64,000 bases of DNA, taken from Fibrobacterota bacterium. Its GTDB lineage: Bacteria; Fibrobacterota; Chitinivibrionia; Chitinivibrionales; FEN-1185. Shown piece after piece: positions 6,217 through 31,888 of the stretch. The stretch is taken from assembly GCA_003165595.1 (NCBI GenBank), contig PLWQ01000041.1, positions 57,517-121,516 of the forward strand, written 5' to 3'. The translations under genes were made by a program, and so were the position numbers. Position 1 is the stretch's first letter; each line of letters starts with the position of its first letter. The notes beneath the pieces were generated by a model. It was not told the DNA's origin, searched no databases, and was given only the letters and a program-made list of their open reading frames with translations.

Positions 6217-7413
6217 CTATTTGACATACGCAAGCTTCCTCGTAAGCGTATTAATCCCATCGGAACATTTGATCAAATACGTACCTGACTTTGAAACGGC
6301 GAGCACTGCATTGCCTGTTCCCCGAAAGGTCTGAGCACACCTTCCGGCAAGGTCGTAAATTGCGGCGGTATACACATTTGCAAATAACGGCATTATCGAA
6401 ATCGATCGGGCGGCTTGTACGAGTCTAAACGAACACGAATTTTCGGGCAGCGACTTGCTTTGCACAAGGTTGGCGACGGTGCCGATTGGTTCCATTATGC
6501 CATTGCGTTCGTCGTATAGTAAGGAGGTGTTGAGGCTGTCGATAACAAGGATACCTTGCAACGAAGAAATCATGTCGGCCCTGCTCCATTGCCAGACGAT
6601 TGCACCTGTCTTGTCGAACTCAAGAAGCTGAATGCCCGAAGCGCCGTGCCCATCGCCGTGTCCCTGCCAGTTTGCAACAACCACATCCCCATTATTCAAC
6701 AGTTGAAACATCGCGTAGAAATACGGATGCACTGCCGTCGGGACTGCTGTCTTGTCACCGAATTTCCTCACAATGGCCCCGGACGGATCAATTTCGACCA
6801 TGAACGCCCCGTACCCGGCTGATATGAGCGTGTTGCCGGTTGGCAGCCGTACGGCTTTCCACATGTGGGAAAATCCCGCGACAGGAGCTTTCCAGAAGAA
6901 TGTCCCTGTTTTGTCGCCTTCCTGGATCATGGTATCGCTTGCAATAAGATAGGTCCCTTTTGCGGTCTGTCGCATGAGGCGGGAATAACTTCCGGGATAG
7001 ACGATTTTGCCTACCACCGCGTTCAACGAATCAACTTCAGCAACAACAACACCCGTCGATTTGGCCAGGTTCACGCCGGTTAACAGCGTGTGGCCATTTT
7101 CCAATCGCCTCGCCGAGGTGGCCCCGCTGAACCCGGTCACTGTCTTGAGAATCTTTCCGGTTGCGAGATCGACCTCAAGATACCCGTCCGCATGCCCGAC
7201 GAGCACCCGGTTGCTGCCGATAAGCTGCAAATCACGCGGTGTATTCTGACTGATTGGAACGGTCCAGTTTTTCGTAGAATCGGCCTCATTCACATACAGC
7301 AGATTGCTTCTTCCCTCGTCAATGGCCACGAATTTGTGCATGATCGTTGCCGAATGCGAAGAAACAACTATCCCGCACACTGTCAGCAAAATCCAGGAAC
7401 CGGCTTTTTTCAT
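6217..7413 (-). CDS. Exported PQQ-like beta-propeller protein with C-terminal sorting-like domain
   Basis: 398 residues from the start at 7413, chosen because it gives a signal peptide (MKKAGSWILLTVCGIVVSSHSA) and is preceded by a G-rich ribosome binding site. The body has repeated blades of the type GNTLISAGYGAFMVEIDPSG and NNGDVVVANW, typical of PQQ-like/arylsulfotransferase-like propellers. The C-terminal ~80 residues (IYDLAGRCAQTF, SGTYLIKCSDG) resemble a degenerate T9SS-type sorting domain. The upstream G9 run (7423-7431 on the plus strand as C9) is part of the Shine-Dalgarno region. Function is unknown; it may be a secreted binding protein or enzyme. Confidence 0.6.
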   Translation of the reverse strand: MKKAGSWILLTVCGIVVSSHSATIMHKFVAIDEGRSNLLYVNEADSTKNWTVPISQNTPRDLQLIGSNRVLVGHADGYLEVDLATGKILKTVTGFSGATSARRLENGHTLLTGVNLAKSTGVVVAEVDSLNAVVGKIVYPGSYSRLMRQTAKGTYLIASDTMIQEGDKTGTFFWKAPVAGFSHMWKAVRLPTGNTLISAGYGAFMVEIDPSGAIVRKFGDKTAVPTAVHPYFYAMFQLLNNGDVVVANWQGHGDGHGASGIQLLEFDKTGAIVWQWSRADMISSLQGILVIDSLNTSLLYDERNGIMEPIGTVANLVQSKSLPENSCSFRLVQAARSISIMPLFANVYTAAIYDLAGRCAQTFRGTGNAVLAVSKSGTYLIKCSDGINTLTRKLAYVK

Positions 7414-7498
7414 GGAAAATCTCCCCCCCCCGTGGTTTGTCACAAGCTAATATACAAACAAAAGAGCCTTGACACGTCCGGATAAATCACGGCATTTT

Positions 7499-7513
7499 CT
7501 TACCTCGAGTAAG
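7499..7513. promoter_or_regulatory. Palindromic site A3, CTTAC-N5-GTAAG
   Basis: CTTACCTCGAGTAAG with flanking ATTTT and AAG, closely matching A2. It lies between the divergent genes at 6217-7413 and 7668-8669. Confidence 0.6.
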
Positions 7514-7565
7514 AAGTCCGATGACTGATGTTTTCCGCTGCCCGTTCACCGGGCGCAAGCCGCGA

Positions 7566-7595
7566 TTGCAATCTCTCTTATCCACCGTCTATTAT
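7566..7595 (+). promoter_or_regulatory. Possible promoter for 7668-8669
   Basis: TTGCAA (7566-7571), an 18-base spacer and TATTAT (7590-7595). Site A3 lies about 96 bases upstream of the predicted start of transcription. Confidence 0.35.
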
Positions 7596-7667
7596 TTTCT
7601 ACCTGGTACCAAGTAAACGCCCGGGGTCATAGATACAGCAGCAACAAGGAATTCAAGGCAGCAGGCA

Positions 7668-8669
7668 ATGAAACCCAGCTCTCACCCGCTTCGAACCTCC
7701 CTGTTTGCAATCTGTACGCTTATTTTCGCCTGTTCCAGGGAGGTGAGCAAGCCGAGCCCTGCGCTTCCGGTGATTTCCGACTCCGTCTCGATGGAACGGG
7801 CGTGCCTGGTCGTCTCACGCTATCTTGCATTCGGGGCGCCTGGTGCGGACACGAACTCCCTCGGGTGCTTTTACCGCACCCTCGACTCCTCCGCAAATGA
7901 ACTGGTGCGCTCCTGCAGCGGCCGTGGAGCCGAGCCTGCAACAGCCGATTCAATTATCGCACTTGTCTATAAACGCTGGAACATTGCCTTTGACGCCCGC
8001 GACACGGTCTTTGAAACACTGCTTCCCCACCTCGTGTACAAGAACAGGAAAGGCGCCTGCCTCGGCGTCTCCCTGATTGTGCTTATGCTTGCGGAAAAGC
8101 TGAACTGCCCGCTCTACGGCGTTATGCTGCCCGGGCACTTTTTCATGCGGTTCGACAACGGGACGCGGAGATTTAATTTAGAACCGAACAAATCGGGATT
8201 CACCCACCCCGACAGCTACTATCGGGAACGATACCCGGTTGCACATCGCGCGTGGTATGATCTTGGGAACTTGACTAAATCGCAATCCATCGGCATGCTC
8301 TGCTATAACGCGGGAGTGTTGTGTCTGCGGCACAACACCTGCAATCAGGCCATTTCTCTTTTCAACGAAGCGACCCGGCGGATTCCCGCGCTTGCAGAGG
8401 CGCGGGGCAATCTCGCCCTGGCCTACGTGCAGGCTGGCCTTACGGATTCTTCGCTCTCTATATTTGAGCGCCTATTCGCTACGGATCCCGACATGCCCGG
8501 TCTTGCCGCAAATTATGGGGCTGTTGCGCTTGCGGCGCAGCGCTATTGCCAATCCGCCGACGTGTTCCGCGCTGGCCTTCGGGATTATCCGGGCGATTCA
8601 ACGCTTATGCGAGGGCTCTCACAGGCATCCGCAAATGCCGGGTCCTGTGCTCCCCGAAAGGCGCGGTAA
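7668..8669 (+). CDS. SirB1/transglutaminase-like lipoprotein with TPR repeats
   Basis: 333 residues. A lipoprotein signal ends at Phe-Ala-Cys (LIFACS), which suggests envelope anchoring. Residues about 120-170 (RKGACLGVSLIVLMLAEKL, then YGVMLPGHFFMRF) match the SirB1/UPF0162 transglutaminase-like fold, including the Cys and His of that fold. About 210-325 form TPR-type helical pairs (NEATRRIPALAEARGNLALA, FRAGLRDYPGDSTL). The next gene starts three bases after the stop, so the two are probably co-transcribed. Whether it is a protease, a transglutaminase or non-enzymatic cannot be told. Confidence 0.7.
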   Translation: MKPSSHPLRTSLFAICTLIFACSREVSKPSPALPVISDSVSMERACLVVSRYLAFGAPGADTNSLGCFYRTLDSSANELVRSCSGRGAEPATADSIIALVYKRWNIAFDARDTVFETLLPHLVYKNRKGACLGVSLIVLMLAEKLNCPLYGVMLPGHFFMRFDNGTRRFNLEPNKSGFTHPDSYYRERYPVAHRAWYDLGNLTKSQSIGMLCYNAGVLCLRHNTCNQAISLFNEATRRIPALAEARGNLALAYVQAGLTDSSLSIFERLFATDPDMPGLAANYGAVALAAQRYCQSADVFRAGLRDYPGDSTLMRGLSQASANAGSCAPRKAR

Positions 8670-10469: not shown

Positions 10470-10700
10470 ATGATTTCAGACAAGATAACCATCCGTGTCA
10501 AGCCCTCCATTGCAAAGGCATTCAGAAGGGCACCAGCCCGCAAAAAACGAAATCTCGAAATGCTCGTCAACCTCAGATTATTGGAAGCGACGAATACAAC
10601 ATCGTCCCTCAGTGAAATCATACGTGAAACGAGTCGGAGTGCGCGTGCAAGGGGCTTGACGCCTGAAATCCTGCGGGAAATACTAAATGAAGAAAAGTGA
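10470..10700 (+). CDS. Antitoxin of a PIN-type toxin-antitoxin pair
   Basis: 76 residues, basic N-terminal half and helical throughout (MISDKITIRVKPSIAKAFRR; SLSEIIRETSRSARARGLTP; ILREILNEEK). The position, size and overlap with a PIN-domain gene (the toxin start at 10687 lies inside this gene) match VapB-like antitoxins that bind DNA and neutralise the toxin. The partner is decayed, so this is probably an orphan. It reads through cleanly with no stop or frameshift. The exact antitoxin family is not recognised. Confidence 0.6.
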   Translation: MISDKITIRVKPSIAKAFRRAPARKKRNLEMLVNLRLLEATNTTSSLSEIIRETSRSARARGLTPEILREILNEEK

Positions 10701-10876
10701 GCGCTTTGTTTTTGACACAAATGTGCTTATTAGTGCCTTGCTCACAGATGGCTCAACCTCAAGCAAAGCTTTTCAACTCGCAACGAATATCGGCATCATC
10801 CTCGCATCTTCCGCAACCCTCCAGGAAAAAAACGCGAATCGTGAAACCGGCAGAATTCATTTCTATTTATCAATAA
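10687..10876 (+). pseudogene. Decayed PIN-domain toxin
   Basis: The first 45 codons encode a good PIN N-terminus (RFVFDTNVLISALLTDGSTSSKAF) with the first catalytic Asp. After ASSATLQE the protein should continue for about 70 residues with the other acidic residues. Instead, a one-base shift at the A7 run (10825-10831) gives KTRIVKPAEFISIYQ and a stop at 10874-10876, which is the typical C-terminal end of such toxins. The catalytic core is therefore deleted and the remaining ends are out of frame. The open frame that runs on to 11094 has no PIN character and looks like chance read-through. Confidence 0.7.
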
Positions 10877-11224
10877 TCGTCCGGCGTACCCCCCCCTCTG
10901 TTTCTATTCCTGAGGCAATCGAGATCAATGCTCAAATCAACCTTCCCTTGAAATCGTTTCAAGCGCTGCAACCTGTCGACCCGGATTATTCGTTCGAGTT
11001 CATTAACAACAAGCGCTGTTTCTGTTTTTGCCCCGGAAATCTTCATAGCAGCGTTCAGCAGTCCCTTTGGGAAGGTCTAAAATCATTCGCATAAGACCCG
11101 CCTAATTGATTTTGAAGGGAGTTTGTCTGCACATGGAATAATAATTCTACGATTCGTGATGTGACAAGAAAAATAAGGGCGTCCCAACGGACGCCATTGC
11201 TGTTTTGACAACACAAAATCCGCG
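10877..11224. other. Non-coding stretch after the toxin remnant
   Basis: The frame open to 11094 shows no recognisable protein pattern and follows a decayed gene. Apart from the terminator at 11178-11195 nothing else is seen. Confidence 0.5.
11178..11195 (-). terminator. Terminator of the minor-pilin operon
   Basis: GGCGTCC and GGACGCC around a 4-base loop. On the minus strand it is followed by CTTATTTTTCTT. It lies 29 bases past the stop of 11225-13441. Confidence 0.75.
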
Positions 11225-13441
11225 TTAGTTAAGGGACCCATAGTCGCGCGACCAGTGACGCTGGGACGTGGTAACGGGCTGCAATTGGAGGATATTGGTC
11301 TGTATGTTTATCGTTGAATTTGAGGAATGGCGCTCACAATAGAAGAAATCGAAATTGTAGATTTGAAGATTCTGTAACCCGGGGATCGTGTCGATCAGCA
11401 CGGTCTCACTGGACGCTGTATGGGGACCGCCCAGATCCATCTGAAGCGTGTTGTTGATAAAAAGCCATATGTCATCGTCCCCGGTGAAGTCGAATCTGAG
11501 GTTCGGAACCTTGAGAAACGAGTACTTGATTTCCATGGTAAAACTGTAGTTGTGAGACCATGACCCGTCTGCATTTTTAGATATTTCATTTGGATTGTTG
11601 GCTTTCTGATCATTTGTATTCCATTCATTTCCAAACCCCCTGTTGTCCAGAATAAAGAAGCCTCCGTTGTTGTATTGATAGGTTCCGGTGGCAGCGTTGG
11701 TGAGTTTGAACGGAAGAGAGTCGAGAAGCACGACATTTGCATATGCCCCATCATAGAGTGGTGACGTAGTTTCCGTCTTTGGATTTGTGCAGTTTGCAAA
11801 CGCGGTCACTTCATTGGCACTGCAATTTCCCCATTCCCCACTATTCCAGGCTCCAGGCCGGAGCCACCGTACAAGGGTTTTTGTGTTAGCAGTACTATCA
11901 ACCGTGGTATATTGCAAAGTGGTGTAGTGATAAACGGGTATGGTATAGTCTCCCGGCTGCCAGGGTCGGAACCATTTCGCAATAAAGTAATTCAGACACG
12001 GCGACGTGCCCACAACCGGTTTGCGTTCCGAATCAAGATGTACGCCCACCATGTTCTTGTTCACCTGACTTACGCACGGCTGCTCAAACTCCGGGTTTCT
12101 CCTGTCCGAATGATAATCATAAAACGTCACCGGAACAAATTTTACCGCACCGCCGTTGACAAGGCCGCCGCCGCCCCGGGAAATAAACTGCCGCAGCGGA
12201 GTCTGGAAAATCGTGCCCCATTTCGAGTTCTGCATGTAGGCGCGAGTCTGCAAATTGAACTGATTTGTGCCCAGATTGGTGAGAGTCCATGCAACCGGAA
12301 CCCCTCCAAAATAGGAAGTGGATGAGAGCGTTGGCGTGTAGGATGCGTAGAGGTTGAATTCGTTGATTCCGTAGCCGTTTGCGGTATTGCGGGTCACGCC
12401 GTTTACGCCGATAAACTCGTACGAACCGGAAAGGCCCTTTATCGTATCCATGCGGTGCGCGGTTGTGCCGTAATCCGTGTGCTCGGCCAGGTCGATCCAG
12501 TTCACCGCGTCGTTTGATCCCTGGATCATGTAGGTCTTTGCGGATTCCACATCCCAATCGATCACCACCTTGCTGATGTTCACCTTGTTGCCGCAATCGG
12601 CATACAGGCGCTGAGGATCGGAGTAGCTGCTCTCCCATTTTGTGCCGGAGTTGTTGTCGATTGAATTCGAGGCCCCGTTGCCGCCATGAGTTGAGGTTGC
12701 AGACATAGTCATGGAGGATTTTGGAAATAACGTGTCGACTATGGTGGACGAGGTGGCCGACGGATACTTCCATACCTGAAAGTCAATGATGCTGAACCAT
12801 CCGTTGTTGTTGCTGTTTGCAAACATCTTCACCTTGACAAACCGGCCGACGGTCACCGGCAAGGGTTGTATCCAATAGTCCGAAGTTCTGACAAGCGATG
12901 TCCACCCGCTCCATGCCGTGGTGTATGATGCCGTGGCATACGATGATCCCGTCCCGATGTCGATATGGATCTGATAGAGCTCGGTGGTGTAGCTCTCAAA
13001 TCTTACCCGAACCTGGCTTATGGTGTCGGCCGAACCGAGATCATATTCGATCGAGTCTCTTGAGAGAGTTCCGTTCGATGCCCACCTGCTTGCCGTGGTA
13101 TCCGAGTCGTACGATTTGGGGCCCTCGTTACCGGTCTGTTGTTCACCAGGCCGGCAATCCACGATCGTGTTCTTCGTGACGGCGCCCGAACTTCCTACGT
13201 TTACAGGGAAGAAGAAGTGCGGTTCCAGTGAATCAAGCACCACTTGCCCGAGCACGGTCATCTGCCCGTCGGCGGCATAGAACGACTGCAGCTTGCTCTT
13301 GTAGTTCTTTCCAATGGTCGAACTCATGCCCGCATTGGTGATCATGCCGAGGCCGACCGCGGTAATGGCCAGCAGGACCAGCATGGCGATAACCATGACA
13401 ACACCCTTTGAGTTCTTCAGATTTCCGAGCAGCGATTTCAT
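11225..13441 (-). CDS. PilX-like minor pilin fused to two discoidin-like domains and a fibro-slime domain
   Basis: 738 residues. Residues 1-60 are a PilX-type prepilin start (NSKGVVMVIAMLVLLAITAVG, then FYAADG). About 85-230 and 235-370 resemble F5/8 type C (discoidin) carbohydrate-binding domains (e.g. ISKVVIDWDVESAKTYMIQG and INEFNLYAS). About 430-725 are a fibro-slime domain: FYDYHSD, FNNGGFF-type block (YNNGGFFILDNRG), then FDFTGDDDIWLFINN and DLGGPH. It is the last gene of a FimT-PilV-PilW-PilX-like operon. It should be displayed at the tip or surface of a type IV/II-like pilus and could attach cells to polysaccharide. The binding role is inferred; the domain order is read from sequence. 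Confidence 0.75.
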   Translation of the reverse strand: MKSLLGNLKNSKGVVMVIAMLVLLAITAVGLGMITNAGMSSTIGKNYKSKLQSFYAADGQMTVLGQVVLDSLEPHFFFPVNVGSSGAVTKNTIVDCRPGEQQTGNEGPKSYDSDTTASRWASNGTLSRDSIEYDLGSADTISQVRVRFESYTTELYQIHIDIGTGSSYATASYTTAWSGWTSLVRTSDYWIQPLPVTVGRFVKVKMFANSNNNGWFSIIDFQVWKYPSATSSTIVDTLFPKSSMTMSATSTHGGNGASNSIDNNSGTKWESSYSDPQRLYADCGNKVNISKVVIDWDVESAKTYMIQGSNDAVNWIDLAEHTDYGTTAHRMDTIKGLSGSYEFIGVNGVTRNTANGYGINEFNLYASYTPTLSSTSYFGGVPVAWTLTNLGTNQFNLQTRAYMQNSKWGTIFQTPLRQFISRGGGGLVNGGAVKFVPVTFYDYHSDRRNPEFEQPCVSQVNKNMVGVHLDSERKPVVGTSPCLNYFIAKWFRPWQPGDYTIPVYHYTTLQYTTVDSTANTKTLVRWLRPGAWNSGEWGNCSANEVTAFANCTNPKTETTSPLYDGAYANVVLLDSLPFKLTNAATGTYQYNNGGFFILDNRGFGNEWNTNDQKANNPNEISKNADGSWSHNYSFTMEIKYSFLKVPNLRFDFTGDDDIWLFINNTLQMDLGGPHTASSETVLIDTIPGLQNLQIYNFDFFYCERHSSNSTINIQTNILQLQPVTTSQRHWSRDYGSLN

Positions 13442-13571
13442 AGGGAACCTCCCCCAAAAGTAAACGTGCGCCCCAGTCCCGTATGCATCAGGCGAATCAT
13501 TCTTTCATCCCGGACATCCCGATTTCTCTTTATCCCGGTAACCCTGGTTGTCTTTATATCGTGCATCCCGA

Positions 13572-14363
13572 TCAGAACCTGTTCCTGAACCGCAAGTCCA
13601 TGGTGAGCGCGAGCCGGTGATACCCGTCGCCAAAGCCGGGGCACTTGTATTTCGGATCAGGCGTAGCCGTTCTTGCACGCACGTACAGGGTAACGGATGA
13701 CATCTGGCTCCAGTTTGTCGTGGGCGCGTAGTTCTTGTCGCGGAACGTCATGCTCAGGGAATCGATGTTCTCCGCCTGCACGTTGGCAGCCGAGTCGACG
13801 CAAAAATTGGTTCCGCTCAGGAAATACCGCGTCGTGGAAGCCGCGAAAATAAGATTTGTCGCATGGAAAGTCATGTTGCTGTGGATCAGGATTGTGTCCG
13901 GATTGATGCCGGTCTTCACGTTGTCGATCCCGACGCTTCCGGCCCACCCCCCAGTGTCGAGCAGAAGGGAATCCGCGCCTGCAAACGCGAGCCCCACCGA
14001 GTCCGGAAACAGGGGAATCTTGGCGTAGGCGGTGTCCTTGATAATGGCGAACATGCCGCCCTTCTTGTTGATTCGCACCGTAACGTCGCTCGACGTGGCG
14101 CTTGCGGTGAAAATCACCGTGTAATATTGCTCGGGCAGGTCCGCGCCCACCTGGGCCAAGTCCTCGCTTAACCGTTTGATGGTGTAGGTTGCGTTCTGGT
14201 ACATATCGGTGGTCTGGTTCTGAAGGTTGTAGCTCCATATGCTTGACATCAGCAAATTGTACACACCAAGGATCACCAATGCGCCCGCGGCAATGGCGAT
14301 AAGCAGCTCTAGCAGCGTCACGCCCCTTGCGTTCAGGGGTGTTTCCTGCAGATTTTTCTTCAC
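13572..14363 (-). CDS. PilW-like minor pilin
   Basis: 263 residues with a class III-type prepilin cleavage/methylation motif (ARG-VTLLELLIAIAAGALVILG, Glu at +5). The transmembrane helix is followed by YNLLMSSIWSYNLQNQTTDMYQNATYT-type coiled alpha-1 and a beta-rich C-terminal domain. The length and operon position (after a PilV-like and before a PilX-like gene) fit PilW. It would be processed by a prepilin peptidase and inserted in the inner membrane before pilus assembly. No peptidase or assembly ATPase gene is nearby. Confidence 0.75.
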   Translation of the reverse strand: MKKNLQETPLNARGVTLLELLIAIAAGALVILGVYNLLMSSIWSYNLQNQTTDMYQNATYTIKRLSEDLAQVGADLPEQYYTVIFTASATSSDVTVRINKKGGMFAIIKDTAYAKIPLFPDSVGLAFAGADSLLLDTGGWAGSVGIDNVKTGINPDTILIHSNMTFHATNLIFAASTTRYFLSGTNFCVDSAANVQAENIDSLSMTFRDKNYAPTTNWSQMSSVTLYVRARTATPDPKYKCPGFGDGYHRLALTMDLRFRNRF

Positions 14364-14387
14364 GGCAGATTACCCCTGCTTCGGTTC

Positions 14388-14825
14388 CTAAAAATTCTTT
14401 GAAATGGCCGTCACCACTTTGAGCGTGTCGGCCGGACCGCTTCCGTAGCCCGCCGAAATCTGCACCTTCCGGACATTGTTGAGGTTGTTCCCCGTCTGCG
14501 GGTCCTTCAGGCTGTCCGGAGCATATATCGTCCACAGAACCGTGATATAGGGCGTAACGCTTGAATCAACAACCACCATGGTACTGTTCTGAACAAAGGA
14601 AGCGAAATTGGCGGAAGGATTCTCGGCTATCGTCATCCGCTGCTTTTCCAGCTGCTTTTCGATGACGTGCCCGGCAACCATGAGCCTGTTTGTTGTTGAC
14701 GTTTGAGACCACGACGTCTTTTGCCACATGAGAACCGACGTCGCGCTCACCATGACAATGATCATTGCGAGGAGCACTTCGATAAGCGTGAATCCCTTTT
14801 CCTCAGCATCCGGATTGTTCGTCAT
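14388..14825 (-). CDS. PilV-like minor pilin
   Basis: 145 residues with a short leader and the motif EKG-FTLIEVLLAMIIVMVSATSV, the standard type IV pilin N-terminus with Glu at +5. A helix (WSQTSTTNRLMVAGHVIEKQL) and a small beta-domain follow. It lies 24 bases before the PilW-like gene and 10 bases after the FimT-like gene. Size and order fit PilV. It is assumed to help prime or cap the pilus, as in known FimT/PilVWX sets. Confidence 0.75.
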   Translation of the reverse strand: MTNNPDAEEKGFTLIEVLLAMIIVMVSATSVLMWQKTSWSQTSTTNRLMVAGHVIEKQLEKQRMTIAENPSANFASFVQNSTMVVVDSSVTPYITVLWTIYAPDSLKDPQTGNNLNNVRKVQISAGYGSGPADTLKVVTAISKNF

Positions 14826-14835
14826 TTGCCCGCTC

Positions 14836-15339
14836 CTATTGCAGTTTCACTCGTCCCGTACTCGCCAGAACACTTATCGTACGCGTCTTGCCGTACCTGT
14901 TGACCACAATAACATTGCCGCCGTTTTTTGCCGAGCCGTCCCCGCGGAATACGACAACGCTGTCCTGAATGCCTCCTGCCGCGACGGGCGGAATGCTGTC
15001 CCGAATGTTACTTGGCGCTATGTACACGCCCATATAGACAGGATCCGTTGCGTCACAATGGTACGCGGTGCCGGAGGCAACGTCAAAGAAGACAAATGAC
15101 CTGTTGGGATTTGACCGGGCATCTATGCACACGCCGACATGAGTGTTGGGATCGGAAAGCGCGCGTGTTCTTGCGACGATCATCTGCCGCTTGACGGCAT
15201 TCGCCGCGGTGCGCAATTTCATTGTCTCGACCATTGGAGAAATGTTAGGCACAGCCAGGGTGGCTAAGAGGCCCACAATGACAATGACTACCATCACCTC
15301 TATTAAGGTAAACCCTTTGCAGCCCTTGGCAGGCTTCAT
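14836..15339 (-). CDS. FimT/GspH-like minor pilin
   Basis: About 167 residues from the ATG at 15339, which puts the motif KGCKG-FTLIEVMVVIVIVGLL nine residues from the start as usual; the open frame extends further upstream to 15420. The mature part (NISPMVETMKLRTAANAVKRQMIVARTRALS) and a C-terminal beta-domain ending VLASTGRVKLQ fit FimT/GspH. It is the first gene of the four-gene minus-strand operon. The ribosome binding site is weak (GGGCGG). Confidence 0.75.
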   Translation of the reverse strand: MKPAKGCKGFTLIEVMVVIVIVGLLATLAVPNISPMVETMKLRTAANAVKRQMIVARTRALSDPNTHVGVCIDARSNPNRSFVFFDVASGTAYHCDATDPVYMGVYIAPSNIRDSIPPVAAGGIQDSVVVFRGDGSAKNGGNVIVVNRYGKTRTISVLASTGRVKLQ

Positions 15340-15664
15340 ACAATACCGCCCGGTGTATCTTGTTCGAACCAGGTATCCCCCGCAACAAATTATACAATTC
15401 TTTCCGGAATAAGGCAACATATGTAAGCTTTACGCATTGCCTCAAATTAAATGTACTGTCGGGCGAAAGGAATCCGGTTGTCAGGTCCGCCGCCGGTGGA
15501 GGAATCCGAACTGGATCAGCTTCGGAGGCAGCAACGGCTCGACGAAAGGATACGGACCTGAGTTCCGGGGACGAAATCAAGAGGGTATTAAGTGGCCCTT
15601 CGATAATTTTGCGACAATACACTTTTTTTTCGGTATATTTAGTTCTCAAGGGGTGGGAGAGGTA

Positions 15665-15769: not shown

Positions 15770-18178
15770 ATGCGGATAACCAGGTTCCTTAAGATAACTG
15801 CGATAATGCTTATCAGCCTCCTGGCACTTGCGAGCAGACCTGTTTTTCCGCAAACTCAAGTGGGCAAAGGATCCTACGTCACTTCAGGAAATTTTTCGGT
15901 CCCGACTTTCAATCCATACATCACTTCAGATTTCAGCCAGAAAGTGATATCCGACAAATGGTGGGCCACCCTTATGACCCAACAATTCTCATCCGGAATG
16001 TGGGCCCATCCGCTCGACTACCAGACAACCGCATCAGGCCTCCAAATGGGGTATCCCGGCGCCGCAACGGTGCAGGGAGACGGGCTCTATTGCTCATATG
16101 TCAACGATCTCACCGTTGGGATAGACGGCTTGAACGCTGCGTCGACGGCAGTGGCGTCCTATTCCCATTTCGGCGTCACCGCCCGCTGGACATCAGGCGC
16201 CATTCTTATGGAAGCCACCCTGTGCCAGGGAATACCGTTCGCTTATTTCAAGATAACCGGTGGCAATGCCAAGATCGCATTTAGCGGCAACCCGACCATC
16301 TGGTACAATCAGGGCGGCGTTGTTGGCGCGACGATTGGCGGCCACAATTACGGCATATTCGCGCCAACGGGTGCGGCTTGGAGCGGCACGGCATCCATGA
16401 CGTCCTCGCTAGCGGGCAAAAACTACCTTTCCGTGGCGCTCCTTCCCGATAACACGGCCCAGACCCTTTCTTTCTTCCAGCAATACGCTTATTCATTCGT
16501 AACGGACACCCGCGTCAGCTGGACCTACAACGAGCAAACAGCAATCCTCACGGACCTTTTTAGCGTTGTCACACAGGCCAAGGAAGGAAGTCAGACCGGC
16601 ACAATTTTCGCCGCATTCCGTCATCAATGGAAAGAGATGCCCGGGCCGTTCCTGCAGTACACCTATCAAAGCGCGCGCGGCGTGATGAAGGTGGTTGCTG
16701 GACAGAGTTTCACCGTCCCCATGAAGTTCAACGGCATTCTCACCACCATGCCGGACTCCGGGGTGAACATGAATACTCTAAACGGGCTTGTTAATGGCGA
16801 AAATATTCCCAGTTCCATAGGCTCCGGCTCATGCACCTACAACAAGGATCTTGGCAGGTTTGCCCAGTTGTGTGAAGAGGCCAACCTCGCAGGCAACACC
16901 GCCAAACGCAGCGCAATAGTCACCAGCCTCGAGTCGAGCCTTCAAAACTGGTTTACTGCCGACGGCAACCCGGAGTTCTATTACCACAAGCCATGGAACA
17001 GGCTCATCGGATATCCTACTTGCTTTTACGCAGACACGCGCTTCGCCGATCACCATTTCCACTACGGTTACTACCTCCGCGCGGCGTCGGTCGTTGCGGA
17101 ATACGACACAACTTGGGCAAAACTCCAGAACTGGGGCGGCATGGTCCAGATGCTTATCCGGGATGTCAACTCCTGGGACGACAATGACTCGCTGTTCGGA
17201 AGATTCGCCTACTTTGAGCCCTACGAAGGCCATGGCTGGGCCGACGGCATGGGCTTCGCAAACGGCTCCAATCAGGAATCATCGTCCGAGTCGATGAACT
17301 TCAACGCCGGCCTCATCCTTTGGGGCGTAATGACGGGTAACAAGACGCTTCGCGACGAGGGGATCTTCATGTACGTCAACGAAGCGCGCGCCATCGAACA
17401 GTATTGGTGGGACGTTGATCACGTTACGTTTCCGTCCGGATATACCCACACTTGTGTTGGCCAGGTCTGGAGCAATGGCGGTGCCTACGGCACGTGGTTC
17501 TCAGGTGACGTGTCCGCTATCCATGGCATAAACTTCCTGCCGAACACCTCCGGCCACATGTACTACGGACGCTGCCCGGACTACATTCCGTCAAACTACA
17601 AGGAAGGCTTCAACGGCGGCTGGTCCGATCTTTTCTACGAATTCCTGGCGTATTCCGATGCGACAACGGCGATGCAGAAATACAACTCGGGCACCGGCAT
17701 TGAAGGCGGTAACACCAAGGCGGCGTGCTACAACGAGATTGCGTCGCTCAACACGGTGGGAAGGCTCGACACTACCATAACCGGCAGCACGCCCACGTAT
17801 GGCGTATTCGACAATGGCAATACGCGCACCTACTGCGCCTATAATCCCGAATATACCGATTTGACCGTTATGTTCAACGACGGATTCAGCATGGTAGTGC
17901 CTTCACGCAAGCAGATCTGCGCCAGCGGGCCGGTGCGGCCGGTTTCGGTGAAAACAGAGCCTTTGACAAAACAGTACTCCGTGCCGGGATCGTGCAGGAT
18001 CCTTTACTCGGGCGGCGCTTTCCGCATGCCGCGTCTTGACGGGGGAACGCGCAGCGTCGCCGTGTTCAATGCTAGCGGCAAGGAAACGTGGGAATCGGCC
18101 GTTTGTTCGGGAAAGCTTGTGCCCGCCGCGCCGGAGAATCTCGCAAAAGGAGTATATTTCATCAAGCAGTTCAGGTGA
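15770..18178 (+). CDS. GH81 endo-beta-1,3-glucanase with C-terminal sorting-like domain
   Basis: 802 residues with a signal peptide (RFLKITAIMLISLLALASRP). The N-terminal beta-domain (KWWATLMTQQFSSGMWAHPL) and the catalytic part match GH81. ADHHFHYGYYLRAASVVAEYD lies near residues 425-445, GRFAYFEPYEGHGWADGMG follows near 480-495, and NQESSSESMNFNAGLILWG near 500-520. The Asp of DHHFHYGY and the Glu residues of QESSSE are the expected catalytic positions. It hydrolyses internal beta-1,3-glucosidic bonds of laminarin or callose. The last ~80 residues (VAVFNASGKETWE, KGVYFIKQF) are a sorting-type domain. It is monocistronic, ending in a hairpin at 18205-18242. Confidence 0.85.
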   Translation: MRITRFLKITAIMLISLLALASRPVFPQTQVGKGSYVTSGNFSVPTFNPYITSDFSQKVISDKWWATLMTQQFSSGMWAHPLDYQTTASGLQMGYPGAATVQGDGLYCSYVNDLTVGIDGLNAASTAVASYSHFGVTARWTSGAILMEATLCQGIPFAYFKITGGNAKIAFSGNPTIWYNQGGVVGATIGGHNYGIFAPTGAAWSGTASMTSSLAGKNYLSVALLPDNTAQTLSFFQQYAYSFVTDTRVSWTYNEQTAILTDLFSVVTQAKEGSQTGTIFAAFRHQWKEMPGPFLQYTYQSARGVMKVVAGQSFTVPMKFNGILTTMPDSGVNMNTLNGLVNGENIPSSIGSGSCTYNKDLGRFAQLCEEANLAGNTAKRSAIVTSLESSLQNWFTADGNPEFYYHKPWNRLIGYPTCFYADTRFADHHFHYGYYLRAASVVAEYDTTWAKLQNWGGMVQMLIRDVNSWDDNDSLFGRFAYFEPYEGHGWADGMGFANGSNQESSSESMNFNAGLILWGVMTGNKTLRDEGIFMYVNEARAIEQYWWDVDHVTFPSGYTHTCVGQVWSNGGAYGTWFSGDVSAIHGINFLPNTSGHMYYGRCPDYIPSNYKEGFNGGWSDLFYEFLAYSDATTAMQKYNSGTGIEGGNTKAACYNEIASLNTVGRLDTTITGSTPTYGVFDNGNTRTYCAYNPEYTDLTVMFNDGFSMVVPSRKQICASGPVRPVSVKTEPLTKQYSVPGSCRILYSGGAFRMPRLDGGTRSVAVFNASGKETWESAVCSGKLVPAAPENLAKGVYFIKQFR

Positions 18179-18447
18179 TCTTGCGTTGAGAGAAACACAA
18201 TGCAAACGGCCCGGCCATCTCGTGCGAGATGGCTGGGCCGTTGTCATATCCGGTTGCGGCACAGTAAAGAACCACGGCCACAGGCCGTGGCTTTAATGAG
18301 GGGTACAACCCCGAAATCAAAGAAAGCACGTCAGTGCTTTTTCGTAACGTTGTGCTCCACGCCCCAGGGCGTGGCCTCTTTTCAAGAAAACGCCGCAGGC
18401 TTCTCTCTCTCGCCTATACATGCAGCACAAAATGAACCGCGCTGCCG
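18179..18447. repeat. Cluster of four hairpins in an intergenic region
   Basis: Four stem-loops follow one another: 18205-18242 (18-base arms, one G-T pair, the probable GH81 terminator), 18272-18290 (CCACGGCC/GGCCGTGG followed by CTTTAATGAGG), 18323-18342 (AAAGCAC/GTGCTTT plus T-run) and 18357-18374 (CCACGCCC/GGGCGTGG). The second to fourth look like the subterminal hairpins of IS200/IS605-type or REP-like elements. No transposase is present. Confidence 0.5.
18205..18242 (+). terminator. Terminator hairpin after GH81
   Basis: 18-base arms (18205-18222 and 18225-18242) with a 2-base loop. The following TTGTCAT is only weakly T-rich. Confidence 0.55.
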
Positions 18448-18786
18448 TCAGGCAGCCACTTCCACCGCCGACTTTCTCAGGTCTCTCTTGAGAAAATGTA
18501 TCCTGCGGCGAAGATGCTTGAGATCCTCATGTTTTCCCGCTTTTAGGGCCTCGTCGCGTTTTGCCTTGAGCGCCTTGATTTTGTCTTTGAGCGAGATCTT
18601 GGCACCTCCAGCCGCAACCTTGTGATGGACCTGCATGGGAATGGCGAGCGCGGTGCAGAGTTTCTCCAGCAGATGCTCTTTGTTGAGCTGGGAGTATCCC
18701 TGCAAGGCATCGTGCTGAATGCCGGCGGCTATGTCGCGAAGTTCGGCAACGGTTTTCTTCTTGAGTTCTTCATAGGTGTGGGACAT
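18448..18786 (-). CDS. Small Rho_N/SAP-like protein
   Basis: 112 residues from the ATG at 18786, which has AGGAGGAGA just upstream; an alternative ATG at 18831 has no such site. Residues about 4-50 (YEELKKKTVAELRDIAAGIQ, then LQGYSQLNKEHLLEKLC) match the Rho N-terminal/SAP-like helix-extended-loop-helix fold that binds nucleic acid. The C-terminal half is basic and helical (KDKIKALKAKRDEALKAGK, RRRIHFLKRDLRKS). It may be a small nucleic-acid-binding protein. It is a single gene with no clear partner. Confidence 0.65.
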   Translation of the reverse strand: MSHTYEELKKKTVAELRDIAAGIQHDALQGYSQLNKEHLLEKLCTALAIPMQVHHKVAAGGAKISLKDKIKALKAKRDEALKAGKHEDLKHLRRRIHFLKRDLRKSAVEVAA

Positions 18787-18902
18787 GAGCCTATCTCCTC
18801 CTGTAGGGGTGTGCGAGTAATACGGTACCACGTTTCACCATTAAAGTAAAATCCGCACAGTAAGAAAACAATACCTTGTGCCCCGTGCTGCGCAAAACAA
18901 GA

Positions 18903-18939
18903 GCCGGCGCCCCCGGAATCACTCCGACCCGGCGCCGGC
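18903..18939 (-). terminator. Terminator of the VIT/VWA gene
   Basis: GCCGGCGCC (18903-18911) and GGCGCCGGC (18931-18939). Read on the minus strand it is followed by TCTTGTTTTG. It lies 47 bases past the stop at 18987. Confidence 0.6.
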
Positions 18940-18986
18940 CCTGCAGTCACGGCAACTGTACGGACCGCCTTGCGCGGCCGATTGTA

Positions 18987-21092
18987 TCACCTGATGTGGC
19001 GCATGGTGATCATCTGACGCGTTTGCCCGATTTCCAGGACCGCAAGGTAGATGCCTGCGCACAGCTGCCTGCCGCCATCGTCGGTTGCATTCCACCGCAC
19101 CACGTAGTTGCCGCCCATCGTCACCTCGTTCACCAGGGTTCGAACCAGCGCGCCGCGCGCGTCGTAGATCCTGATCGTCACGCGTTGCGGAGTCGAAAGC
19201 GCCGGGACGCTGTACCGTATCTGGGTCGTGAATGTAAACGGGTTGGGCAAGTTCGCATGCAGGGTAACCCTTGTTGCGAGCTTGTCGGTCTTGTCGAGCA
19301 ATGTGTTCCCGACGGGTGGTTCGGTTACGACGGCCGAGGTGTACTTGGTGATAATGCTGTATTTCTTCCCGAGCACTTTCACCGCGTCAACAAGCTCCGG
19401 CAGCTCGCCGTAAATACCGATTTCATTGAGGAGATAGTCGATTTTGGACGAAGCCCACATGCGGGGAACAAACGGCTGGTTTCCGGCGGTGGACGGAAAA
19501 GCAAGCGTCTGTTTGAGCATGAGCGAATCACTACCCCGCGATCCGCGGAAGGTAATGGGAAACTGTCCCGAGGTGCGATACCTTCCGAGCACCGAAAGCT
19601 GGGCGCCCAGGTACAGGTTCGGCAGCGGATTCGGATACATGTCGTAGGCGGAAATACCGCCGTAGTCGATTGACAGATTCTTGAGGAGCGGGAAGGATAT
19701 CTTGTTCAGGAAGCTCTGCATCATCACGTTGATGCTGTCGTCGGCCAGGATCATGGTGGCGAACCCGCTGTTCTGTTTGGCGAGAAGCTTGAGGAAATCA
19801 ACGCCCACCTGGTCGCCTATGCCGAATGTGAAGATCTCCACCCCGCCCGAGTTGTGCGCCGCGACCGTGTCGATGATGCTTGCCGAAGTGGAAGTTGCGG
19901 GCCAGGTCGGCTGGCCATCGGTAAGGAAAACGATTGCATTCACCATAGAAGAGATCCAAGTGCTCTTGAGTGCCGCCTTGAGAGCGTCTTCGATATCGGT
20001 GAGGCCGGCCTCCGAAAGTTGATTGATAAAGGCATGAGCCGCGGCCCTGTCTGCCGAATCGGCGGGCACGAGATCCGCGGAAAACGGCCGGACCGCGGTG
20101 CTGAACGCGATAATGTTGAACTTGTCCCCGGGATTCAGTTTGTCAACCATGGCATTGAGCGATGCGCGCAACTGGATTATCCTTGTACCCGACATCGAGC
20201 TGGATATGTCGGCAACCAGGACCACGTTCTTGTTGAGCGCATGTGCCGTATCGGGCGGCGTCACCCACAGAAGAAAATAGGGGTTGTCGCCCAACGTATC
20301 GAAGAAAAGCATGGAATCCGGCTTCACGGTGTAGGTAAGGTGATTCATCGCGTAATCGGTGAGCCCCAGGGTATACACCAGCTGGAGATCCTTTTCGGAA
20401 TAGGAGTTCTCGTTGCCGAATGTCGCCGTGTAATGATAGTCGGACAGTTTGGTAATGGCAAGCTCGGGACTCCCGGCATGCGAAGGCGATACGAGAGACA
20501 GAATCTTGTTCTGCGCCGTGAGGTCGAAGGTGAGGGATGTCACCAGAACCGGTTTCGGCGAGAGATTGACCGTTTTCATGAAGAACGCATACTCGACGCT
20601 TGCTGCATCGTAGGGCAGGAGTTCGGCATACGTAATTTCGATGCGACGCTCGCACATCGGCGAACCAACCGGGTCTATGGGAAAAACCGAGAGCTTGAAG
20701 ACGTTGTTGCCCATGTCCTGAAGAAGCGCAGGATCGATGGATCGGCGAACGATCGAATCGTACTTCATGGAAGCTGTATCGGAATCCATTACCTTGGCAA
20801 CGACGCGCTGCCCGTTGATCCACAAAGCCAGTTCGGTGATGACCGCATTATCCGGAAGCGGAAAAACGAAAACGCCTTCCAGACGGTTGCTTGTTTCATT
20901 CTTGAACGTCTGGTCCACGTGGGTCACCGCAATCTGATCGGTTATCTTGACATCCGCATTATACTTTTCCAGCCAGAGCGCGGTGCCCGAATCGTTGGAC
21001 AAGGCCCGCCGGGCATACAACGCTCCTACCGCATGCGTTGAGCTTGCAAACGCCAGCAGCACCAGAACAAGGCACATCAGTTTCTTCATCAT
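18987..21092 (-). CDS. VIT and VWA domain surface protein with sorting-type C-terminus
   Basis: 701 residues with a signal peptide (LMCLVLVLLAFASSTHA). About 30-165 form a VIT domain (VDQTFKNETSNRLEGVFVFPL, ALWINGQRVVAKVM). About 265-435 form a von Willebrand A domain with a complete-looking MIDAS (VADISSSMSG, FLTDGQPTW). The end (LHANLPNPFTFTTQIRYS, IRIYDARGALVRTL, AGIYLAVLEIGQ) is a FlgD/Por-type sorting domain. This arrangement suggests a metal-dependent adhesion protein on the cell surface. Site B1 (21207-21223) lies 114 bases upstream, and the terminator is at 18903-18939. Confidence 0.8.
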   Translation of the reverse strand: MMKKLMCLVLVLLAFASSTHAVGALYARRALSNDSGTALWLEKYNADVKITDQIAVTHVDQTFKNETSNRLEGVFVFPLPDNAVITELALWINGQRVVAKVMDSDTASMKYDSIVRRSIDPALLQDMGNNVFKLSVFPIDPVGSPMCERRIEITYAELLPYDAASVEYAFFMKTVNLSPKPVLVTSLTFDLTAQNKILSLVSPSHAGSPELAITKLSDYHYTATFGNENSYSEKDLQLVYTLGLTDYAMNHLTYTVKPDSMLFFDTLGDNPYFLLWVTPPDTAHALNKNVVLVADISSSMSGTRIIQLRASLNAMVDKLNPGDKFNIIAFSTAVRPFSADLVPADSADRAAAHAFINQLSEAGLTDIEDALKAALKSTWISSMVNAIVFLTDGQPTWPATSTSASIIDTVAAHNSGGVEIFTFGIGDQVGVDFLKLLAKQNSGFATMILADDSINVMMQSFLNKISFPLLKNLSIDYGGISAYDMYPNPLPNLYLGAQLSVLGRYRTSGQFPITFRGSRGSDSLMLKQTLAFPSTAGNQPFVPRMWASSKIDYLLNEIGIYGELPELVDAVKVLGKKYSIITKYTSAVVTEPPVGNTLLDKTDKLATRVTLHANLPNPFTFTTQIRYSVPALSTPQRVTIRIYDARGALVRTLVNEVTMGGNYVVRWNATDDGGRQLCAGIYLAVLEIGQTRQMITMRHIR

Positions 21093-29512: not shown

Positions 29513-31888
29513 ATGCGAAGTGCAAAAAAGATTTCCATGCTCATTGCCGCTCTTGTGGCATACGCCACAGTTTTCGGACAAAGCGGCGATTTCCAGACAG
29601 CGGGAATCGTTAAGTTCAACGGCCAGCCGTTGCAAATGGCGACCGTCACCTACACCAGTGTCGCGCAGCGTCTGTCGTGGGATTTTTCCAGGTCGGACGG
29701 ATCGTTTGGCGGCCCCACTTCCACCCTTCCCCAAATGCGGGACCAACGGATCACGCTGCCTGCGGACGGCCCGGTCACGATTGATATTTTTGATGTCGGC
29801 GGGAAGAAAATTACCACGGTGAACGGCAAGCTTGACAAAGGATCATATCTCCTCCAGCCGTTTTCGGCGAAACTTGCACAGACTATGTATGTCCTCAAGA
29901 TCAAGGCGGGCGATGTGGTGACCTACCAGAAAATGATGGCCACCGGCAATGCCAGGAACGGAATCGCTATTGCGGTTTCCTCATCGAATGCACCCACTGT
30001 TCTGGCCAAGAAGATGGCGTACATCGACACGGTGCGTGTCGGCAAGACAGGCTTCACGCCGGTGTTCATTCCGATCACCACCTATGCCGACAATGTCGGC
30101 ACCGTGAACCTGGATTCCATCGACATAGAAGGTTTGGTCAATACGGTCTTTGGCCAGATGACTCCGGCCCAAAAATACGGGATATGTGCCATGCCGGCCT
30201 TTCAGAACGACAACGCGGCGCAATGTGCAGCAGATTTCTGCGGCCTCACTTTTGGCGGCGGCGGCTGTTTTCAAAACTCTGCTAACGCATCTGATGTCGC
30301 AAACACGGTCGACAGTTACCAGAGTGCCGCTATGGGCACCACTCTGAAGATCCCGATGTTGTTCGGATATGATGCGGTACATGGCGCCAGCGCTGTTCCG
30401 GGCGTCACCCTTTTCCCCCACAATCTTGGAATGGGCGCGATTCAGGATACGCTGCTAATTCAAAAGGCCTTCCGCGTTGGGGCCTTGGAAGTTCGCGGAT
30501 CCGGAGCAAACTTCGGCTTTGGACCCTGCATTGCCGTGATTCGCGACGACCGCTGGGGACGGGCGTATGAAGGCTTTTGCGAAACGCCGGAGCGCACCAA
30601 GATAATGGCCAACAACGCCGTTTTAGGCCTTCAGACCTCCGATTTGTCCCTGCCCCGTGCCTATGCCGCATGTGCTAAACATTTTGCCGGCGACGGCAAC
30701 ACGGTAAACGGCAGCAATGGAGGAACAACACAGGGGCCCGATTCCGCGGCTCGTGCTATCAATCTGCCCGGTTACGTTGCAGCTGTTAACGCCGGCGTGG
30801 CAACGATCATGCCTTCATTTTCCTCCTGGTGTGCTGGAGTTATACCTTCAACAATAATGTCCAAGGAAACGCCCCTCCTCACGAACTGGCTGAAACTCGG
30901 GCAGGCGCCCCCTTATCCTCCGAATCCTCCGAATCCGCCTTTCAAGGGTTTTCTTGTGAGCGACTGGGATGCGGTGGGTACCCTTGACTTTTTGAACGCG
31001 GGCGGCGATGTTCTGATGTCTCCTGAATACGGCTTGGGCGTTATCAACGATTTCACTACCTATTATGGCACCATTCAGGCGAGGGTTACCGATGCCATGA
31101 AACGCGTGCTCCGCGTAAAAGCCTGGATGGGCATGCTCAGCTATTATCAAAACCAGAAAACACCCGCCTATTTGACAGATCGGAGTTTGACCACCGTGGT
31201 CTACTCCCAGGCGCACCGGGACGTGGCCCGCGCATGCGTGAGGGCCTCGCTTGTTCTTCTCAAGAACAACTCTGTTGGCGGCACGCCGGTGCTGCCGATT
31301 CCCGCAACCGCGAATGTCGCGATATGGGGCGTTGCGGGTGATAATGTTGGTATCCAGTGCGGCGGCTGGGCAGTGAGCTGGCAAGGTCAGGTCGGGGGCA
31401 TTCCGGGCGGCGCCGGCACCTCCATCAGAACCGGCATTCAATCGATTTGCAGCAACGTCAGCTACACCGCAAGCCCGGCTTCAGCGGGGACTTCCGACTA
31501 TGTCATCGCATTTCTCAGCGAAAATCCCTATGCTGAAACGGACTTCCCTGACATCAGCCTGACCGATAAGGATGCAAGCTCCTCGAACAGCGCCGTCATA
31601 GCGCAAATCGCGGCAGCGCATACAGCCGGAAAAAAGGTGATCGGGGTTCTCCTTGCCGGAAGAGTACTTGACATTTCAACAGTTCTTCCCAATTGCGACG
31701 CGTTTGTGTGGGCCAGTTTGCCTGGCACCGAAGGACTGGGCGTCGGGGAAATGCTGTTCGGCGTGAATGGCTACAAGTTTACCGGCAAGCTCCCTGTTAC
31801 CTGGCCGCAGAACCTGGCTCAGGAACCCATCAATGTCGGCGATGGAAAAACAGGATTGTTCGCCTACGGCTACGGATTGACAGACTAA
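29513..31888 (+). CDS. GH3 beta-glucosidase, first of a tandem pair
   Basis: 791 residues with a signal peptide (KISMLIAALVAYATVFGQ). About 25-75 are carboxypeptidase-regulatory-like and about 85-145 the sorting-like module (VTIDIFDVGGKK, TMYVLKIKAG) shared with other proteins here. GH3 follows: YDAVHGAS, KHFAGDGNT, the nucleophile in FLVSDWDAV (Asp about 484) and, in the second domain, SENPYAET (Glu about 670, the expected acid/base position). It should release glucose from beta-glucan oligosaccharides outside the cytoplasm. A terminator is at 31918-31954. It is about 60 percent similar by eye to the gene at 32547. Confidence 0.85.
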   Translation: MRSAKKISMLIAALVAYATVFGQSGDFQTAGIVKFNGQPLQMATVTYTSVAQRLSWDFSRSDGSFGGPTSTLPQMRDQRITLPADGPVTIDIFDVGGKKITTVNGKLDKGSYLLQPFSAKLAQTMYVLKIKAGDVVTYQKMMATGNARNGIAIAVSSSNAPTVLAKKMAYIDTVRVGKTGFTPVFIPITTYADNVGTVNLDSIDIEGLVNTVFGQMTPAQKYGICAMPAFQNDNAAQCAADFCGLTFGGGGCFQNSANASDVANTVDSYQSAAMGTTLKIPMLFGYDAVHGASAVPGVTLFPHNLGMGAIQDTLLIQKAFRVGALEVRGSGANFGFGPCIAVIRDDRWGRAYEGFCETPERTKIMANNAVLGLQTSDLSLPRAYAACAKHFAGDGNTVNGSNGGTTQGPDSAARAINLPGYVAAVNAGVATIMPSFSSWCAGVIPSTIMSKETPLLTNWLKLGQAPPYPPNPPNPPFKGFLVSDWDAVGTLDFLNAGGDVLMSPEYGLGVINDFTTYYGTIQARVTDAMKRVLRVKAWMGMLSYYQNQKTPAYLTDRSLTTVVYSQAHRDVARACVRASLVLLKNNSVGGTPVLPIPATANVAIWGVAGDNVGIQCGGWAVSWQGQVGGIPGGAGTSIRTGIQSICSNVSYTASPASAGTSDYVIAFLSENPYAETDFPDISLTDKDASSSNSAVIAQIAAAHTAGKKVIGVLLAGRVLDISTVLPNCDAFVWASLPGTEGLGVGEMLFGVNGYKFTGKLPVTWPQNLAQEPINVGDGKTGLFAYGYGLTD

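Follow-up and report, generated by a model that had tools for sequence, protein, structure and literature searches.

A PilX-type minor pilin with discoidin and fibro-slime domains in Fibrobacterota: a candidate lectin-bearing tip of a type IV pilus

Why does the last gene of a minor-pilin operon in a Fibrobacterota bacterium (Chitinivibrionales; assembly GCA_003165595.1) encode a protein of 738 residues carrying lectin-type domains, and where would such a protein act? The window, by which we mean the whole stretch of DNA analyzed, comprises 64,000 nucleotides of contig PLWQ01000041.1 (positions 57,517 to 121,516). The initial annotation had put a 738-residue protein at the PilX position of a FimT-PilV-PilW-PilX operon, and both points held: the ORF is real, it is the last gene of the operon and three prepilin genes lie upstream of it. 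The extent given at that time (11225-13441) is likewise correct; the strand, which had not been stated, is minus. The operon and its surroundings contain the following features (window positions):

15770..18178, plus strand: GH81 beta-1,3-glucanase gene, divergent from the operon (PF17652, E=8.7e-46), with synteny kept in a same-genus genome (L050)
15389..15417, minus strand: sigma-70-like promoter match 5' of the minor pilin operon (consensus scan, 10/12; weak)
14836..15339, minus strand: FimT/GspH-like prepilin, 167 aa, with a GFTLIEV motif (N_methyl E=9.2e-9)
14388..14825, minus strand: PilV/GspI-like prepilin, 145 aa (N_methyl E=3.5e-6; TIGR01707 gspI E=1.1e-6, below cut-off)
13572..14363, minus strand: PilW/GspJ-like prepilin, 263 aa (N_methyl E=4e-5; TIGR01711 gspJ E=1.1e-4, below cut-off)
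13448..13455, minus strand: strong Shine-Dalgarno sequence GGGGGAGG, 6 nt upstream of the pilin ATG
11225..13441, minus strand: PilX-type modular minor pilin, 738 aa, with its ATG at 13441
11178..11195, minus strand: intrinsic-terminator-like hairpin 3' of the operon (consensus scan; weak, the count of such hairpins not exceeding that in shuffled sequence)

The FimT/GspH-like protein also matches GspH PF12019 weakly (E=0.008) and TIGR01708 at E=1e-10, below the cut-off of that profile. Promoter-like sites are barely more numerous in this region than in shuffled sequence, so the promoter match is weak. Elsewhere in the window, a PIN-domain-like ORF lies just 3' of the operon (10687-11094, plus strand), with a PF13470 match that is below cut-off and covers the first 44 profile positions only; it is preceded by a short ORF, and the pair resembles a decayed VapBC-type toxin-antitoxin. 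There are also three long secreted-type ORFs of about 785-826 aa (29513-31888 and 32547-34904, plus strand; 50654-53134, minus strand), whose similar starts make them look like paralogues.

Within the 738-residue protein, the following parts were distinguished:

13403..13441, minus strand: class III leader peptide, residues 1-13, ending in Gly13, which is invariant in relatives
13232..13411, minus strand: prepilin alpha-1 helix, residues 11-70 (PilX_N at 12-61; predicted helix, pLDDT about 67-85)
12785..13126, minus strand: first F5/8 type C (discoidin, CBM32-like) domain, residues about 106-219 (PF22633, 31.7 bits, cut-off 27.8)
12368..12706, minus strand: second F5/8 type C domain, residues 246-358 (PF00754, 56.0 bits, cut-off 28.2)
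12179..12331, minus strand: predicted four-stranded pilin beta-sheet, residues 371-421 (AlphaFold2 pLDDT about 74-85; conserved motif in relatives)
11285..12139, minus strand: extended fibro-slime (PA14-like) domain, residues 435-719, the region shared with Sec-type fibro-slime proteins
11471..11482, minus strand: G-D-D-D motif, residues 654-657, invariant in two alignments of relatives
11228..11260, minus strand: C-terminal tail R-x-W-x-R-D-Y-G, residues 728-738, kept in pilin-type fibro-slime proteins

The prepilin start that had been read from the sequence is supported by PilX_N (PF14341), which scores 31.4 bits on residues 1-75 (cut-off 25.5), 25.2 bits, slightly below that cut-off, on the whole protein, and 31.3 bits in a search of the genome, in which this locus is the only match. 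The mature protein would begin VVMVI and thus has no glutamate at position 5 (Glu5). Neither T2SSK (PF03934) nor the PilY1 beta-propeller profile (PF05567) matches here. The two F5/8 type C-like domains proposed earlier were recovered by profile search, their bit scores coming from separately tested fragments, and on the full protein the F5/8 type C match covers two stretches (E=5.6e-18 for the protein). The first domain matches the CBM32 of AlyQ (residues 104-223, E=2e-6), and the closest solved structures to the second are discoidin domains of a Paenibacillus glucanase/chitosanase (E=7e-13). A beta-1,3-glucanase of Paenibacillus has discoidin domains of this type that bind polysaccharides (PMC2789033).

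The fibro-slime domain, too, is secure, with 101.5 bits for the TIGR02148 core (residues 630-717; curated cut-off 45), and it is larger than had been thought: the conserved region, delimited by its overlap with secreted fibro-slime proteins from this genome and related ones, spans about 285 residues (435-719) and exceeds the 90-position core. In the profile match, the GDDD at residues 654-657 coincides with the position of the Asp-Asp calcium motif described for PA14 lectins (PMC8092209). The PA14 profile itself (PF07691) reaches 18-21 bits in the window protein, under its cut-off of 24, and passes the cut-off in several relatives.

How the pilin part and the modules are joined was addressed with an AlphaFold2 model built from 24 alignment rows, whose overall confidence is low (mean pLDDT 55). 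The model has a helix at residues 11-70, a middle in which the F5/8 region lacks a resolved fold, the four-stranded sheet, and then the fibro-slime part as a well-predicted beta-sandwich (mostly pLDDT 82-97 at residues 630-720). A related protein from the genome RYN_349, modeled separately (mean pLDDT 64), has its helix at 11-70, followed by a module, a sheet at 270-317 and the fibro-slime domain, so that two separate models give the same order. The succession of F5/8 and fibro-slime domains after the helix in the initial annotation stands, but with the predicted sheet intervening, the modules do not simply follow the pilin. In the models the pilin domain appears to be split by an insertion, its sheet coming after the F5/8 domains and before the fibro-slime domain, and we infer that this sheet is the pilin beta-sheet displaced by the inserted module. 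Structural comparison by Foldseek matched the window model to sugar-binding PA14 domains (MpPA14, Flo1/Flo5 and the Epa adhesins), with no pilin among the best 50 matches; with the RYN_349 model it returned a two-domain anti-sigma-factor protein with a weak global fit and no pilin.

A search for the same fusion in other Fibrobacterota, which the initial annotation had proposed, met at once with the difficulty that the best overall matches in other genomes could not be taken as orthologues, most of them being secreted fibro-slime proteins that have no pilin start. The C-terminal tail was therefore used as the probe: when six fusions were aligned, their extreme C-terminus (R-x-W-x-R-D-Y-G) proved invariant, and an alignment of the last 50 residues was run against 168 genomes of the phylum. 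The search did find the fusion elsewhere: 22 loci in 16 genomes (mostly metagenome-assembled, as are the genomes compared throughout) and four families match through the tail at 53.7 bits or more, and all other listed matches end inside the fibro-slime domain or just beyond it. Three of the 22 loci are interrupted by contig ends; the remaining 19 proteins are complete and every one has a PilX-type prepilin start. Among 138 distinct complete fibro-slime ORFs, the pilin start and the tail occur together in these 19 and are both missing from the other 119; the tail pattern W-x-R-[DE]-[YF]-G accordingly divides the pilin-type proteins (19/19) from the other fibro-slime proteins (0/119). Ten of the 19 were found via the C-terminal model only and were absent from the build of the N-terminal model, which nonetheless scores them at E<=9e-20, and this independent co-occurrence suggests that the N- and C-terminal parts function together. 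Glutamate at mature position 5 is absent from all 19, and at least one prepilin ORF lies just upstream in 18 of them (by motif count). A helix-end motif around A-[AS]-D-G is also conserved. Named carriers of the fusion are Chitinispirillaceae and Chitinivibrionales MAGs and the Fibrobacteres MAGs nzgw217, RYN_348 and RYN_349. A PDB search with the tail alignment gave no match. On the combined reading of alignments and predicted structures, the conserved frame is a PilX helix, a short beta-sheet, a fibro-slime/PA14-like domain and the C-terminal tail.

What lies between helix and sheet is not conserved. This slot of about 165-300 residues holds two F5/8 type C domains in the genus of the window, DUF1349 in Chitinispirillaceae-type genomes (one match passing the cut-off and two weak ones), PA14 in the RYN_348/RYN_349 family, GH115_C in two genomes of another family and no recognized domain in two proteins. 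The F5/8 domains are thus not a defining feature of the fusion: of all the fusions found, only those of the two genomes in this genus have them. In a tree built from the scaffold only, the proteins group by family in three of four families and module type tracks the clades; it places neither this genus nor the long-branched G002 row firmly. From this tree and the differing modules we conclude that the scaffold is old and that the slot has been refilled. The F5/8 domains thus fill, in one lineage, a slot whose content varies, and the fibro-slime domain and tail are the constant parts.

The wider search turned up several further arrangements of these genes. Two PilX-fibro-slime genes stand in tandem behind a single PilV/PilW pair (L256:4613-6355 and 6372-8096, minus strand), and other genomes of that family hold two or more copies at different loci. 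On contig 6 of the genome of the window (G000), three long secreted fibro-slime genes follow one another (L125:6665-10387, 10758-15497 and 16101-19004, plus strand, the third running past the end of the stretch); these are probably a paralogue pool of the domain in this genome. Two fibro-slime loci were also seen in a viral collection.

Large proteins at the PilX position are not confined to the fusions with this tail. In G002, a genome of the same family, another large PilX-type protein (650 aa; L116:1341-3293, minus strand) has a BNR/sortilin-like propeller region in place of the fibro-slime domain. PilX-type proteins of 545-786 aa with no extra domain recognized (L117:5926-8286 and L118:5672-7309, plus strand; L119:5535-7205, minus strand) are found in other members of the order, so large PilX proteins are common there. 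The Fibrobacteraceae have giant proteins in this position, 65 of the 69 PilX_N places lying in ORFs of 1,567-2,973 aa. Three of these were examined (L112:3067-10530 and L114:2800-10380, minus strand; L113:6011-13357, plus strand): they have 2,448-2,526 aa and 66-81 cysteines, and the W-x-RDYG tail is found in none of the three. Searches of two of them against Pfam (one also against NCBIfam, the other also against PDB sequences) gave nothing beyond PilX_N.

In the minor-pilin systems studied so far, a FimT/U-PilV-PilW-PilX complex starts assembly, a subunit without Glu5 caps it and PilY1 sits beyond (PMC7541494, PMC10191384). We think it probable that the window protein is a PilX of modular build which carries lectin-type modules on the tip of a type IV pilus that can be retracted, and that it replaces PilY1. 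In the FimT/PilV/PilW/PilX tip complex it would be the K subunit, the core minor pilin PilX. Cleavage by prepilin peptidase would fall after Gly13, and the Glu5-less PilX would then cap the minor-pilin complex that initiates assembly and so come to lie at the pilus tip. The capping role is proposed because absence of Glu5 is the mark of the capping subunit (PMC10191384, PMC7541494). The lineage-specific glycan-binding module (here, two discoidin domains) would sit between pilin helix and sheet, with the PA14-like fibro-slime domain and its probable calcium site after the sheet, and glycan binding may be calcium-dependent. The pilus would extend the modules, which would grip a polysaccharide or other glycan surface, and PilT would retract it; a single polypeptide would thus do the job that elsewhere falls to PilX and a separate adhesin, PilY1. 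A search of 41 genomes of the group with the PilY1 profile (PF05567) gave no match; the same profile matches two of four control genomes outside the group and gives no match in the other two, which may or may not have a PilY1. As to the target, a beta-glucan-like polymer is our guess, from the likeness to the Paenibacillus discoidin domains and from the GH81 gene that adjoins the operon in both genomes of the genus.

A different ligand would change the biology while leaving the pilus in place: the tip modules might bind exopolysaccharide of the cell itself or of its neighbors, serving aggregation or twitching on self-made polysaccharide, and not an insoluble food polymer. M. xanthus PilY1 proteins with a sugar-binding-type domain have been suggested to bind EPS (PMC13190605), and PA14 lectins have broad monosaccharide specificity (PMC8092209). 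The divergent GH81 gene beside the operon in both genus genomes and the origin of the closest solved discoidin domains in glucanases and chitosanases speak against this, both suggestively only, and we regard a self-made ligand as rather unlikely, perhaps one chance among several.

The pilus itself could be questioned, since the protein might instead act in type II secretion as a GspK-like pseudopilin at the tip, its large domains contacting secreted enzymes and not external glycans. GspK is likewise large and without Glu5 (PMC7541494), FimT, PilV and PilW match the GspH, GspI and GspJ profiles (below cut-off), and the genome does have a T2SS-like cluster, on contig 35. That cluster, however, has two N_methyl prepilins of its own, and beside two small pseudopilin-like ORFs it encodes a 534-aa candidate GspK-like protein (G000 contig 35, L134:6359-8928, minus strand). 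T2SSK has no match above cut-off in the whole genome and none of any kind at our locus, which instead holds the genome's sole PilX_N match. Together these points lead us to assign the operon to the type IV pilus system, as an inference, and on a periplasmic pseudopilus one would not expect lectin modules of an external type; we consider a GspK-like role improbable. The genome has two PilT-type ATPases and a PilM/PilN/PilO/secretin cluster, and the minor-pilin operon lies apart from these type IV pilus machine genes.

Still less probable, in our estimation, is that the prepilin segment does no more than anchor the protein in the inner membrane or direct its export, and that the protein is never polymerized. 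Assembly is so far a prediction and the modules are bulky, but the end-of-operon position is conserved along with the upstream prepilins, the A-[AS]-D-G helix-end motif and a predicted pilin sheet are retained, and a periplasmic lectin would have no obvious ligand. An artefact of misassembly or sequencing error, conceivable in a multi-contig assembly, has practically no probability left, because the one-piece architecture recurs in independent assemblies from the same genus, the same family and the same order and from another class; relatives with the gene in one piece, in four families, rule out misassembly or a separate gene for the start, the latter being one of the two outcomes that the initial annotation had named as counting against it, and the same-genus genome has the identical gene order throughout (GH81, FimT, PilV, PilW, a one-piece 736-aa fusion and a 567-aa membrane protein).

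Pilins that carry lectin modules, PA14 included, have been surveyed (PMC8179133), and for one of them, PilC of Streptococcus sanguinis, the lectin function has been proven (PMC9934059). Modular lectin pilins were thus already known, and what we did not find described, in the literature found on both subjects (mostly non-subscription papers), is a fusion of a fibro-slime domain with a pilin. The window protein is a modular pilin in the sense of a pilin joined to a domain not specific to pilus biology, here F5/8 type C and fibro-slime domains. In PilB and PilC of S. sanguinis, too, a type IV pilin is joined to a functional domain that is not specific to pili, and the filament displays it; PilC carries a lectin, and the tip location is argued from structure (PMC8179133, PMC9934059). 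Their modules, in contrast, are C-terminal grafts on minor pilins of a monoderm, and PilC has Glu5, whereas the carrier here is the Glu5-less PilX/K capping subunit of a diderm, with a conserved C-terminal tail, one module between helix and sheet and another after the sheet. With PilX, PilK and GspK the family shares the PilX_N start, the missing Glu5 and the last place in a FimT-PilV-PilW-PilX operon (PMC7541494, PMC10191384), yet these proteins measure about 570-740 aa from the PilX start and bear lectin-type domains, while GspK has an inserted alpha-domain instead (PMC8179133).

The PilY1/PilC adhesins are similar as modular tip effectors in which one part is conserved and the adhesive domains vary, and their proposed place is beyond PilX (PMC13190605), but PilY1 is not a pilin and has the PF05567 beta-propeller, of which none was detected here. 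Fibro-slime proteins of Fibrobacter succinogenes have the same TIGR02148/PA14-type domain and are linked to cellulose adhesion (PMC3079729, PMC4668043, PMC6851124); unlike the present proteins, they have secretion signals or no annotated signal and have been treated as separate from pilins. The PA14 lectins MpPA14, Flo1/Flo5 and Epa are the best fold matches of the fibro-slime part and have the Asp-Asp calcium motif (PMC8092209), although sequence similarity is low and calcium and sugar binding are putative in our protein. What is new, then, is the fusion itself, its carriage by a Glu5-less PilX, an apparent insertion within the pilin domain, a slot whose content is exchangeable, and a tail specific to the pilins.

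A bolder generalization, possible and in our view somewhat doubtful, is that in the Fibrobacterota the PilX cap itself is the tip adhesin platform in the place of PilY1: the pilin would be split and have a slot for exchangeable lectins, the fibro-slime/PA14 head would be constant, and assembly would require the conserved W-x-R-D-Y-G tail. The giant PilX proteins of the Fibrobacteraceae would be its extreme form and possibly part of the long-sought link between type IV pili and adhesion to cellulose.

Fibro-slime proteins and type IV pili have each been linked, separately, to polymer adhesion in Fibrobacterota (PMC4668043, PMC4704652, PMC6851124). Here the two are united in one molecule, on the pilin that is expected to cap the pilus, giving a concrete candidate for the attachment of Fibrobacterota polysaccharide degraders and an example of a diderm pilus that may dispense with PilY1. 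The natural swaps of modules in a constant scaffold offer a way to test what determines the specificity of a pilus tip, and the pilin-specific tail is a new and easily mutated target.
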